From Candidatus Gastranaerophilales bacterium (lineage in GTDB: Bacteria > Cyanobacteriota > Vampirovibrionia > Gastranaerophilales > Gastranaerophilaceae): DNA of 64,000 nucleotides. Below the pieces are notes generated by a model. That model was given only the letters and a program-made list of their open reading frames with translations, was not told the DNA's origin and did not search any database. This document shows positions 45,471 to 52,312 of this stretch, piece by piece. Where the stretch lies: assembly GCA_944324305.1 (NCBI GenBank), contig CALUVV010000005.1:62001-126000 (forward strand), read 5' to 3'. Numbering within the stretch: position 1 is the stretch's first letter; each line of letters opens with the position of its first letter. The translations under genes were made by a program, and so were the position numbers.

Positions 45471-46496
45471 TTAATAAACCCTGTATAAGTTACCGCCTTT
45501 TATGATGTCCGAAATTGCTATAAAAGAAACTCCGAGAATATAATCAACAGCTTCTTGAGTATCATATGCAATATGGGGGGTGATAATTACATCGGGATGT
45601 TGTGCGAGTTCCTGAATAATTTTTGCCTCTTCAATACACTCTAAACTGTTATTCAAATTTTTTGATAATCCGGTGCACTTAAAGCTTAAATCCTCACAAG
45701 TTACAACATCTAAAGCCGCACCCTTTATTATGCCCTTAGAAACTGCATTGGACAAATCTTTTATATTAACAATCTCTCCCCGCGAAGTGTTTATAAGATA
45801 AGATGTATTTTTCATAATGCTAAACTGTTCGGAAGCGAACATATGATAATTATTGCCTGTATAAGGAATATGAAGCGTTATAATATCCGACTCTCTCAAA
45901 AGTGTATTAAAATCAACATAAGAAACATTATATTTGGCCGAAAATTCCTGTTTTTCAACTATATCATATGCAAGTACTTTCATACCGAAAGCTTTTGCCA
46001 GTTTACATACAGCAACCCCTATATTGCCCGTGCCTACAACCCCCAGGTTAAACATAGAAACATCACGTCCGATAAAATCCTTAGAAATACATTCCTTATT
46101 CAATACATAACCGGAAGCAGGAATAATATGCCGCACAAGTGCAAGAATTAATCCCATAGTAAATTGTGCCACGGATTTTGCCCCGTAAGCTTCTACATTA
46201 ACAACCGCTATATTTTTTTCTTCGGCAGCTTTTAAGTTTATATGATCAATCCCCGTTGAACGTGTCGAAATTATCCTGAGATTTTTAAAAGAATTTATAA
46301 CATATTCTGTAAGTTTAGAGTCTACAAAAACACTTACGACTGCTGTATTATCCAGATCTTCCCGCGGCAGTCCGGATATTATCTCATCGTTTAAACTTTC
46401 TGTATAAAAAGTTATATCAAAATTATCCAATTCATGCGTTCTGAAAAACTCTTTCTCGCTTTCACGGTAATCAAACACCAACATTTTTACTGCCAT
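45471..46496 (-). CDS. ldhA: D-lactate dehydrogenase / D-2-hydroxyacid dehydrogenase
   Basis: The 341-residue protein has the NAD-binding motif GVVGTGNIGVAVCKLAKAFG, the catalytic Arg in ISTRSTGIDHIN, Glu region NTSRGEIVN and the His in ITPHIAYDTQEAVDY. It probably reduces pyruvate to D-lactate to recycle NADH in fermentation. Other 2-hydroxyacid dehydrogenases cannot be excluded. It is convergent with ubiE. Confidence 0.9.
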   Translation of the reverse strand: MAVKMLVFDYRESEKEFFRTHELDNFDITFYTESLNDEIISGLPREDLDNTAVVSVFVDSKLTEYVINSFKNLRIISTRSTGIDHINLKAAEEKNIAVVNVEAYGAKSVAQFTMGLILALVRHIIPASGYVLNKECISKDFIGRDVSMFNLGVVGTGNIGVAVCKLAKAFGMKVLAYDIVEKQEFSAKYNVSYVDFNTLLRESDIITLHIPYTGNNYHMFASEQFSIMKNTSYLINTSRGEIVNIKDLSNAVSKGIIKGAALDVVTCEDLSFKCTGLSKNLNNSLECIEEAKIIQELAQHPDVIITPHIAYDTQEAVDYILGVSFIAISDIIKGGNLYRVY

Positions 46497-46642
46497 TAAT
46501 TGTACCTCCTGACAGCATTATTAAATAAACCATCATTTATTCTATTGCACAAAAGTGTAAATATTCAGAACAATTAATTAATAAAAGGTTGAATGAAATC
46601 ACCCTTTAAAAAGTTTATTCTAAAAATGTGAAAGGAGTAAAT

Positions 46643-47125
46643 ATGAAACACGACTTGATAATCCGCGAGCCTGAACTGTATTTTGACAGTATACATAACG
46701 AATTAAATAATTTTCTACGCGATACACTGCTCATTCATTCAATGGCTAATCCGCTTAATATAAAGAAAAATTCTGTCTGGCGTCCCGCAATAGAAGTCAA
46801 GCAGAATGATCAAAATTATAAAGTAAAAGTTCAACTCCCCGGTGTAAGTAAAGATGACATTGAAGTCGAACTTGATAACGATTTTATGACAATCTCCGCT
46901 GAAATTAAAGAAGAAGCGGAAGAAAAAGAAGAAAAAGCAAAAAATGAACGCTATCATACATCAGAATTTCGTTACGGCCGCTATCAGAGAACAATCTCTT
47001 TTGATCAGCCCGTGAAAACAGACGAAAGTACAGCGGTTTATGACAAAGGCGTTTTAACAATAACAATTCCTAAGGTTCAGATTGAAAACAAAGAACCGAA
47101 AAAACTTGAAATAAAAGAAAAATAG
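46643..47125 (+). CDS. Hsp20/alpha-crystallin small heat shock protein
   Basis: The 160-residue chaperone has an alpha-crystallin domain (about 50-150) with VQLPGVSKDDIEVELDNDFM and the GVLTITIPK end, and an extended acidic, Lys/Glu loop (EEAEEKEEKAKNERYHTSEF). ATG at 46643 follows AAAGGAG. The 275 bases after the stop are GC-rich and structured, which is unusual here. Confidence 0.93.
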   Translation: MKHDLIIREPELYFDSIHNELNNFLRDTLLIHSMANPLNIKKNSVWRPAIEVKQNDQNYKVKVQLPGVSKDDIEVELDNDFMTISAEIKEEAEEKEEKAKNERYHTSEFRYGRYQRTISFDQPVKTDESTAVYDKGVLTITIPKVQIENKEPKKLEIKEK

Positions 47126-47411
47126 GTTTCGTATCTTAAAGCCGGATCATCCGGGATATTTCCGGGCCCGGGGCTGTAATATCGTATTATTACAGTGTAT
47201 TCGAAGCAGATGACAGTGATAATCTGCATAATTCCCGGGAAATTAGCGGCGGGATACGGACGGTTACCCGATGGGTGAAACTTTACTAAAAACTGATGAT
47301 TATATATAGCAGATTTTAAGGAAAGCCGAGCGCATCGCCGCAAATCCCAAATGACGGTAATCGATAAACAAGACACGGGGTGTAGATATAGTGGCATTCC
47401 GTGTCTTTTTT
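47126..47411 (+). ncRNA. unidentified GC-rich structured RNA candidate
   Basis: The region has no ORF but is clearly richer in G and C than its surroundings and full of inverted repeats: CTGTAATA/TATTACAG (47174-47181 with 47188-47195), GCAGAT/ATCTGC (47206-47211 with 47222-47227), CCCGGGG with TCCCGGG enclosing both, and ACCC/GGGT (47266-47276). It ends in a terminator (47372-47411). I tested it by eye against tmRNA, RNase P, SRP, 6S, cobalamin and glmS patterns and found no match. It could be an independent RNA or the long 3' end of the hsp20 message. Confidence 0.45.
47372..47411 (+). terminator. intrinsic terminator
   Basis: GACACGG and CCGTGTC flank a 20-base loop and lead into TTTTTT; it ends the structured region after hsp20. 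Confidence 0.8.
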
Positions 47412-47414
47412 ATT

Positions 47415-48740
47415 CTATTCACTTACAAATTTTATTAACTTTTTAACATCTTTGTTCCACAAGCCGTTCCAATTTCGGATTATTACATCCGCAGGACTTA
47501 TGCCGCTTAATGTGTACTCTTTTATTGCATCCAGATATTGTTCTTCGCCTGTGTCCATTTCTATTAACGATTTTTCGGCTATATACAGAATTTCTTTTGC
47601 AATATCTTTTACTGAATATTTACCGATACGTGCATTCAGAGCACTTTTGGGAACATTATACCGAAGCTCAGAAAAATCTCTGTATTCAAACGGTTTAAAT
47701 AATTCTTCTATTTCAATCATTGCCGAACGGTTATACAAAATGCCCTTATAAATTGCAAGAATTGAATACTGTAAATCCCTGCCTGCACAGTCATGATTTC
47801 TTATTTCAACAAAATTACGCATACGCACTTCCGGAAAATATAAATTAGCATGAAGGTTAAAATCTTCTATACCGGCGTTAAAACCGTTAAAACCGTTTTC
47901 CATGAATTCCGAAAAGCTTAATTTACCGTTAACGGGAACAGCACCTGTTTCGCGATTAATGAATATCATAGGAGCCTCAAGGACATAATCAACATATTCT
48001 TCAAATGAAAATCTGTCATCAATCTGCCCGACAAAACCGCATCTGTCATTATCCGTATTAAGCCAGCTCAGTGCCCGAAAACTTTTATAACCCGTTTCAA
48101 CACCGCCTCTTATAGGTGAATTTGCAAACATTGCAGTCATAAAAGGAGTTAATTTATTTGCGATACGGAATTTGTCCGTTGCATCTTCTTCACTCTCAAA
48201 GTCAATACAGCATTGAATACCCGCTGTTTCTCTCATCATAACGTCAGACAAAATTCCCCATAAATATTTTGCCATAATATGATATCTTTGTTTCGGAATA
48301 AGACTTATGGATTTATGTGTGGACAACGGGGAAACTCCGTAATTTAAAAGGCTGATACCTGATTTATCAAGAACGGGTTTCATTTTTTTATCCAAATCAT
48401 TTATTTTATTTTTAAGCCCGCCGATTGTTTTTTCAGGCTTTAAGCTTAATTCGAGCTGGCATCCCGGTTCAAGAGTAATAGTGTCATGTTCCTGCTTCAA
48501 GCCTATAATATTGTAATCATCGGTAATATAGTCCCAGTTTTCTTCTTTTGCAAAATTTCTCAGAAAGTTACACACTCCGAATTCCGAGGAGTAATCCGCA
48601 GCCTTTGAAGTCACAGAAAAAACAGGCAGTCTTTCATATTCTATACCGATTTTATGCTCCGAGGAAGGTTTGCAGCCGTCCTTAAATAATTTTACAATCT
48701 CTTTTTTGTCTAATTTTTCCTGTGTTTGAATGTTACTCAC
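47415..48740 (-). CDS. gshA: glutamate-cysteine ligase, plant/GCS2 type
   Basis: The 441-residue protein has GIEYERLPVFSVTSKAADYS, then ITLEPGCQLELSLKP and the later MRNFVEIRNHDCAGRD, as in plant-type and proteobacterial glutamate-cysteine ligases that make gamma-glutamylcysteine, the first step of glutathione. gshB is not in the window. The related EgtA role cannot be excluded. It lies convergent with the structured region and divergent from rsmA. Confidence 0.87.
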   Translation of the reverse strand: MSNIQTQEKLDKKEIVKLFKDGCKPSSEHKIGIEYERLPVFSVTSKAADYSSEFGVCNFLRNFAKEENWDYITDDYNIIGLKQEHDTITLEPGCQLELSLKPEKTIGGLKNKINDLDKKMKPVLDKSGISLLNYGVSPLSTHKSISLIPKQRYHIMAKYLWGILSDVMMRETAGIQCCIDFESEEDATDKFRIANKLTPFMTAMFANSPIRGGVETGYKSFRALSWLNTDNDRCGFVGQIDDRFSFEEYVDYVLEAPMIFINRETGAVPVNGKLSFSEFMENGFNGFNAGIEDFNLHANLYFPEVRMRNFVEIRNHDCAGRDLQYSILAIYKGILYNRSAMIEIEELFKPFEYRDFSELRYNVPKSALNARIGKYSVKDIAKEILYIAEKSLIEMDTGEEQYLDAIKEYTLSGISPADVIIRNWNGLWNKDVKKLIKFVSE

Positions 48741-50533: not shown

Positions 50534-52129
50534 TTAAGCTGCTTTTGCGGGTGTTCCTGCTGCTTCCATTGCGGCATCGCGTTCTTCTTTTGTTTTAAAG
50601 AACTGACTTCTGTTACCGTTGCAGTCTGTGTAGAAATATCTTACGGTACCGTCTGCGGCTTTACCTTTGTATCTCTTGAATGATGTTGAGAAATCTTCCG
50701 GTTTTGCTGCTTTTTCTTTAACCTCAGCATCGCAGTCCACATTATATTTTTTGCCGTTAAGTTCTGTGTATAAACGCATTACAGAAGGCTGCGTATTTTT
50801 TGTAAAATCGGTAATACCATGTTTGCGTTTTAACTCGTGAACTATTGCAACTTCTTCATCCGGAGTTAATTTAGAACCGTCTTCATGAGTATATTTTGCT
50901 TTGACAATTCCGCGCCAGTATTCACCTTTTTTAACTTCATAGTCGCAGTATTCTTCTTTTTCTTCACCCGGAGTAAGCGGGCAAGGAGGAACTTCCGGTT
51001 CTGGTTTTACGGGAGCCGGATCAGGTTCCGTTACAGGCTGGGGTTCAGGCTGATTTACAATTTCTTCTGCTTTACCTGGTGTATAAATTTGAGCTTCTTT
51101 GTTGCCTTTGTCTTTGATAAAGCCCATTGTACTTAAACCTAAGCCAAGACCGATTAATGCACCTGCCGCTGCACCCTGTCCTGCTTTGCTTAAACCTGAT
51201 TTCGCTTTAGCTGTAGCTGTGTCGGTAGCTGTAGCAGTATCGGTTGCTGTTGAAGATTCTATGATGTTGCCTGCACTGTCATAAATATTTGCGGTTGCAT
51301 TAGATGTTGATGTTGCTGTTGAAGTTGCGGTTGCAACAACATTACCGGCAAGTATGCCTGATGCTCCGAGTGCTGCGCCTAAACCTGCGCCGACACCTGT
51401 TACACCTGCAACATACAGACCTCTGTAAAGATTTGTATTATCTTTTTCGTATCCGAGGTTTGATTTTTTAGCTATATTTTTAATTACGCTTGCTTTAACA
51501 TTTTCTTTTTCTGCAGCTTCGCGTCTTTCTTTAAGGCTTAAATAATGGTTTTCGGCTTCACCTTCCTGTGTATGGGTATTAGCGAATTTTAAAGCTGTTT
51601 GTTTGAATTTATCGCTTGAGAAGTTACCGTTTTCGTCATAGAACAAATCTTTATTGCCTTCGACGTATTTACGTGTTTTCTTACCGCTTACATATTCATT
51701 TTCAACTAATTGAGCATCGGCTTTTTGTTTTGCTTCTTTTCTGCTTAAACCTTCGTTTCTGTACTGTTCAACTAAATCTTTTCTCTGTTCTTTGCGTTCT
51801 TTTTCGGCGGCTTTGTAAGCTTGTTTATCCATAAATACCTGAGTAGCATCCGATTTTTCTTCATAATATTTATCTTTTACGTAGTTTTCAGCCATTTTTT
51901 GAGCTTCTTTTTCGGATTCAATTTTTTTACCTTCAACGGTGCCGAATTTTAAGTATGCCTGTTTTGCTTCTTCAACAGCTTCTTTTCTGGCTTTTTTTGT
52001 TGCAAGTTCTCTTTGAATTTCAGCATTTAATTTTGCTTTTTCTGCTTTTTCTTTTTCAACCGGATCTGTAACTGCTTGTTTTTGAGTATTTTTAGCAGAT
52101 ACTAAATCAACTTTTTTTACGTCTGTCAT
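50534..52129 (-). CDS. large repetitive hypothetical protein with hydrophobic Gly/Ala segments
   Basis: The protein is 531 residues from the ATG at 52129 (GGGAAG site; an upstream start at 52225 gives 32 extra residues). Residues 1-230 are Lys/Glu/Ala-rich coiled coil. Then come two Gly/Ala hydrophobic segments (GLYVAGVTGVGAGLGAALGA, later AAAGALIGLGLGLSTMG) on either side of a Thr/Ala/Asp-repeat (TATDTATATDTATAK). A Pro/Glu linker (EPQPVTEPDPAPVKPEPEVP) leads to a LysM-like stretch (YEVKKGEYWRGIVKAKY). I do not recognise a family. It may be a membrane-associated or surface scaffold; that is inference. Confidence 0.75.
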   Translation of the reverse strand: MTDVKKVDLVSAKNTQKQAVTDPVEKEKAEKAKLNAEIQRELATKKARKEAVEEAKQAYLKFGTVEGKKIESEKEAQKMAENYVKDKYYEEKSDATQVFMDKQAYKAAEKERKEQRKDLVEQYRNEGLSRKEAKQKADAQLVENEYVSGKKTRKYVEGNKDLFYDENGNFSSDKFKQTALKFANTHTQEGEAENHYLSLKERREAAEKENVKASVIKNIAKKSNLGYEKDNTNLYRGLYVAGVTGVGAGLGAALGASGILAGNVVATATSTATSTSNATANIYDSAGNIIESSTATDTATATDTATAKAKSGLSKAGQGAAAGALIGLGLGLSTMGFIKDKGNKEAQIYTPGKAEEIVNQPEPQPVTEPDPAPVKPEPEVPPCPLTPGEEKEEYCDYEVKKGEYWRGIVKAKYTHEDGSKLTPDEEVAIVHELKRKHGITDFTKNTQPSVMRLYTELNGKKYNVDCDAEVKEKAAKPEDFSTSFKRYKGKAADGTVRYFYTDCNGNRSQFFKTKEERDAAMEAAGTPAKAA

Positions 52130-52312
52130 TTTTCTTCCCTTTCTAATTTTCCCCGTGACAAGAAAATTAAACTTTTGAATATCCCCTATGCTTTTATAAA
52201 AAATTTTTGAGTGTGAAAATTGCATGAAATATAAAAGTTTTCTTAATATTTGTTAACAAAAGCACCCGACAAGACTATTCACATATTACGGATTATGATG
52301 TATTATAGGCTT

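Follow-up and report, generated by a model that had tools for sequence, protein, structure and literature searches.

What is the role of an RNA that cells keep while discarding the heat-shock gene that stands before it? The question is raised by a short intergenic region in an uncultured gut bacterium of Candidatus Gastranaerophilales, which belongs to the Melainabacteria. The region is contained in the 64-kb stretch of DNA that was analyzed here (the window). The region follows hsp20A, the gene of a small heat-shock protein. The stop codon of the gene ends at position 47125 and the conserved RNA begins at 47127, 1 nt beyond the stop. The predicted RNA is about 285 bases long and is comprised of domain I (47128-47260), domain II (47261-47363) and a terminator (47364-47413). 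Of the family features, the window carries the P1-P2-P3 core, P7 directly after P1, the terminator and the context of a dehydrogenase gene, a promoter and hsp20A. The coordinates are collected in Table 1.

Table 1. Features of the RNA locus and helices of the predicted fold (window coordinates)
Feature	Position	Strand	Remarks
D-2-hydroxyacid dehydrogenase, divergent	45471..46496	-	PF02826; constant upstream neighbor at the checked RNA loci, whether or not hsp20A is present
Putative promoter of hsp20A and (by read-through) the RNA	46592..46621	+	AATGAAA 46592-46598, 17 nt, TATTCT 46616-46621; exact pattern match
hsp20A, small heat-shock protein, 160 aa	46643..47125	+	Pfam PF00011 HSP20, E=5e-18; adjoins the RNA in 48 genomes
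Structured RNA	47127..47411	+	kept in 75/383 family genomes; fold z=-4.4; covariation
P1, closes domain I	47128-47137 with 47251-47260	+	94.5% of cells paired; 7/10 pairs changed on both sides (37 sequences)
P2	GCCG 47141-47144 with CGGC 47247-47250	+	97.9% paired, nearly invariant (37 sequences)
P3 hairpin	47151-47154 with 47162-47165	+	4/4 pairs changed on both sides (37 sequences)
P4	47167-47172 with 47234-47239	+	6/6 pairs changed on both sides; 82% of cells paired
P5, within P4	47174-47181 with 47188-47195	+	fold and inspection only
P6, within P4	47206-47211 with 47222-47227	+	96% paired; 2/6 changed on both sides
P7, base of domain II	CGGTTACC 47261-47268 with GGTAATCG 47356-47363	+	compensatory pairs; found without a preset fold
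P7b, inside P7	TGGG 47272-47275 with CCCA 47346-47349	+	inspection
Intrinsic terminator	47364..47413	+	arms 47364-47378 and 47399-47413 (15 bp, 93% complementary), T run
Glutamate-cysteine ligase family 2, convergent	47415..48740	-	PF04107, E=2e-39; neighbor, outside the RNA system

The region had been singled out in an earlier note as much richer in G and C than its surroundings. It is indeed richer, with 44.1% G+C against 36.1% over the window and 23-25% just upstream of hsp20, but "much" is slightly too strong a word; 2.9% of all 286-nt windows have an equal or higher content. Two cores reach 68% (47142-47172) and 61% (47232-47262). The same note had counted at least five inverted repeats. 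The actual number exceeds five, but many are 6-nt chance matches; the fair test is the fold energy compared with shuffled sequences. For the RNA strand this energy is -96.4 kcal/mol, compared with -74.7 +/- 5.0 kcal/mol for 200 dinucleotide shuffles, none of which folds as well. The terminator is as good as had been described, and its 10-bp stem contains compensatory changes in its pairs.

The covariation that the earlier note had proposed to look for in relatives is strong. When 27 relatives were aligned with MAFFT, 92% of the cells paired and 11 of the 30 pairs were changed on both sides, a result equaled by none of 500 shuffles. In a 37-sequence alignment from several genera, which was made to the covariance model and hence leans towards it, both sides are changed in 20 of the 30 pairs, and pairing falls from 92% to less than 47% when the partner is slid. 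When every pair of alignment columns in the window's genus was scanned without a preset fold, the top-ranking covarying stems were those of the terminator, P7, P1 and P6. P7 and the terminator covary. P1 and P2 are separated by a conserved AAA bulge, the P3 loop (GATATTT, consensus GAUWWU) is alike across genera, and P7 abuts P1 so that there is no spacer between domains I and II. The P4-P6 arm (47167..47239) is variable and is missing or different in compact relatives. The inner part of domain II, like P5 and P7b, was assigned by folding and inspection. Comparison establishes as conserved a predicted fold with a P1-P2-P3 core, P7 directly after P1 and a terminator of its own.

The compact relatives contain a pseudoknot. 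The five bases right after P3 match a hairpin loop of domain II in 25 of 25 sequences and at the same offset. The set covers seven genera (sampled: g7, g9, g13, g17, g20, g27, g35 and g38). Five types of pairing occur (CGUAC/GUACG, CGUGG/CCACG, CGUGC/GCACG, CAUGC/GCAUG and CAUGU/ACAUG), the changes among them being compensatory, and when the 3' parts were dealt anew none of 2000 permutations was as good. The location of the 5' bases and the bounds of the 3' parts were set by hand, and any 5-base match is found in 22% of cases with shuffled 3' parts. Since a lone match of this length is not rare, it is the offset common to all sequences, together with the matched changes, that gives the pseudoknot its weight. 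A search for the pseudoknot in the window's own genus found none, and the P4-P6 arm occupies that place.

Two covariance models, R1 and R2, find the RNA in 75 of the 383 genomes of the family, in nine genera and as a single copy in each genome. R1 detects it in 28 of the 33 genomes of the window's genus, across which it is also found by blastn; eight further genera were added by the covariance models, and three g22 genomes among the 75 were counted on R1 alone. No credible match outside the family was obtained in the phylum and class samples, and a search for a phage or plasmid origin gave no match. Two R1 matches (L092 and L098; E 0.0003 and 0.003, per genome 0.003 and 0.02) are coding-like and have no terminator, and were omitted. 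An exact-pattern match on a Spirosomataceae contig (L112), where R1 is silent and the R2 E of 0.02-0.5 falls in the range of false matches, was taken as chance. The RNA is also carried by an entry named 'Fusobacterium sp. CAG:439' (L121, FR900472.1), which appears to be the genome with a copy 92% identical to that of the window, and appears to be a mislabelled member of the family.

In four genera, g9, g27, g35 and g38, a look-alike RNA is located behind hsp20A. Its R2 score is weak or nil, and its membership is based on inspection and the pseudoknot. In genus g9 (L148, L154 and L180), further structured sequence precedes or interrupts the core of the RNA that follows hsp20A. Other short, hairpin-rich 3' ends of hsp20A, often with ACCGC...GCGGU and a terminator, are present in g24, g29, g34 and g40 (L158, L160-L163). 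Homology of these short ends to the RNA could not be demonstrated; they may be shortened forms of it or have no relation to it.

The order of the locus is the same whether hsp20A is present or lost: the dehydrogenase gene, the promoter, hsp20A where it is retained, and the RNA. The glutamate-cysteine ligase gene, among the loci checked, adjoins the RNA only in the window's genus. The putative promoter, AATGAAA-N17-TATTCT, is found with its 17-nt spacing in many relatives, either ahead of hsp20A or immediately ahead of the RNA. It is conserved across genera of the family, at 46592-46621 of the window and at the same place in L009-L032, L076, L078, L149, L150 and L152. No enrichment that would define a regulon was detected in the window's genome (20 sites with at most one mismatch vs 24 for the reversed control), and the pattern is absent upstream of groES. 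Farther along, the window encodes a 563-aa lysine/glutamate-rich protein with Ala-Thr-rich repeats (50534-52225, minus strand).

The relationship between the RNA and the heat-shock gene is asymmetric. Among the 75 genomes with the RNA, hsp20A lies directly before it in 48 (0-89 nt, same strand) and is absent in 27; in none of the 75 is hsp20A found elsewhere. In the window's genus, the RNA is present in each of the 17 genomes with hsp20A, and the 16 without hsp20A divide into 11 that keep the RNA and five that lack both. Absence of hsp20A was read from MAGs, many of which are 96-99% complete, with the locus itself assembled without the gene. On a tree of the neighboring dehydrogenase, which was sampled by the RNA and hence does not include loci lacking both RNA and hsp20A, the presence of hsp20A changes state at least 14 times. 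Well-supported close pairs on this tree are L011/L012, L073/L074, L080/L083, L090/L091, L094/L097, L016/L019 and L076/L081-L082. The changes are read as losses of hsp20A because repeated gains at one exact spot are implausible. At many of the loci without hsp20A the promoter stands directly before the RNA, with no gene in between. Since the RNA has been kept through many losses of hsp20A, it is not merely the 3' UTR of that gene. The five genomes that lack both indicate that it is dispensable in some lineages.

These findings are best explained, with a probability of about 0.7, by a structured non-coding RNA that represents a new family in Candidatus Gastranaerophilales, is transcribed from a promoter, acts in trans and most likely functions as an RNP. 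The RNA very probably has a job of its own, so far undescribed. It would be transcribed from the hsp20A promoter at the 3' end of a joint transcript with that gene, and processing would then release it or its own fold would preserve it; alternatively, it could be a stand-alone RNA of ~150-330 nt. In either form it would be made with, or instead of, the small heat-shock protein. The terminator and the fusions of promoter and RNA in species without hsp20A argue for a transcript. Retention in the absence of hsp20A points to action in trans, and the RNA may work by binding a protein or complex under the conditions that induce hsp20A. An RNP is favored over base pairing because what is conserved is the helices, the junctions, the P3 loop and, in relatives, the pseudoknot, rather than a long open seed. 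The term "stress-induced" derives from hsp20A, since the promoter pattern is unenriched in the genome and lacking at groES. More tentatively, the RNA could be a stress-linked partner that shares promoter and locus with the small heat-shock protein, has an RNP function of its own, for example in the protection of proteins or ribosomes, and has repeatedly outlived the protein, leaving the hsp20A locus as an RNA-only gene in some gut bacteria. This fuller picture is possible rather than probable.

The alternative that survives best, an unlikely one, is a base-pairing sRNA derived from the 3' UTR, which would repress target mRNAs in trans via an exposed seed. The terminator and the 3'-terminal position in a stress-type transcript fit such sRNAs (PMC8625941), and by sequence this location (same strand, gap of 0-89 nt, terminator) is found in 48 genomes. 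The conserved letters, however, lie in a compact fold with short loops, and no long single-stranded seed is common across genera. It is improbable that the RNA is a cis-acting element in the 3' UTR of hsp20A that serves mRNA stability, 3'-end tuning or termination and has no function of its own. Such an element would account for the close association with hsp20A, which is never found elsewhere in the RNA genomes and which in the window's genus is accompanied by the RNA in every case, but not for the 27 genomes that have kept the RNA across many independent losses, nor for loci in which no gene is left between the promoter and the RNA. It is conceivable that the RNA has a different cis role at the locus. 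Slightly less probable still is a ribozyme or a ligand-binding, riboswitch-like RNA. The conserved junction letters, the spacerless connection of P1 and P7 and the pseudoknot of the relatives resemble compact functional folds, but the terminator at the end and the convergent gene in the window's genus leave no conserved downstream gene to control, and no known ribozyme or riboswitch family is matched.

The earlier note had recognized no known RNA family in the region, and Rfam 15 agrees: at the gathering score neither the window nor any of 20 related loci was matched, and at E<=10 the region gave chance-level matches only (best E=0.17). A ROSE-type RNA thermometer was rejected, as it needs a position in the 5' UTR where it masks the ribosome-binding site, and the RNA sits after the hsp20A stop. 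A diverged housekeeping RNA (6S, RNase P, tmRNA or SRP) would agree with the size and the single copy, but is very improbable, as candidates for three of these are located elsewhere in the genome: RNase P RNA (RF00010, E=4e-74) and tmRNA (RF00023, E=1e-49; ARAGORN finds none in the window) on contig C2, and the only 6S-like site (RF00013), which is below threshold, on contig C3. The latter candidate (G000, C3:208713-208891, minus strand, L038; 39.4 bits, E=1.4e-6, gathering score 46.4) is probably the diverged 6S RNA of the group, missed by the Rfam cut-off. That the region is a coding sequence or a repeat, GC-rich by chance, has almost no probability left, since the 106-aa minus-strand frame that spans it varies in length among relatives, as do all other frames on both strands, base-pair covariation is strong, and the region occurs once per genome and is absent from phages and plasmids. 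The unclassified structured RNA suspected in the earlier note is thereby supported; the promoter link and the survival of the RNA after loss of hsp20 go beyond what had been suspected.

Bacterial structured RNAs that are this conserved often have central functions, and the Melainabacteria are common, mostly uncultured gut relatives of Cyanobacteria. The history of the locus provides an unusually clean natural experiment, in which one RNA is found with or without the heat-shock protein, under the same promoter, in dozens of species. A covariance model is ready for use, and the fold with its pseudoknot is testable. No description of an RNA at this locus, and none of such RNAs from Melainabacteria, was found in the literature searched.

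OLE, GOLLD, ROOL and raiA RNA are orphan structured RNAs that were first found by comparison of intergenic regions. The RNA described here is likewise orphan, structured and found by intergenic comparison; it differs from OLE, GOLLD, ROOL (PMC12286853) and raiA in its smaller size, its restriction to a single bacterial family, its link to hsp20 and its lack of an Rfam match. The unnamed candidates of a human-microbiome screen were found in gut bacteria by the same kind of signal; its main text names neither Melainabacteria nor heat-shock genes, and an unnamed entry for this RNA in the supplementary list is possible (PMC8040213). Like the 3' UTR-derived sRNAs (PMC8625941), the RNA forms the 3' end of a coding transcript and ends at its intrinsic terminator. 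It differs from them in being large, multi-helical and, in many relatives, pseudoknotted, in having no seed-type region that could be seen, and in that the unit of promoter and RNA stays after repeated loss of the coding gene. ROSE-type thermometers sit in the 5' UTR of small heat-shock genes and govern the translation of the mRNA to which they belong (PMC3669281), and IbpA regulates its own synthesis via its own mRNA, again in the 5' UTR and at the translation of that mRNA (PMC10474464). In these systems, as here, a structured RNA is attached to a small heat-shock gene, but the present RNA lies behind the gene and persists where the gene has been lost. The RNA is filed as a new family within the broad kind of orphan structured bacterial non-coding RNAs, with an unusual locus history.
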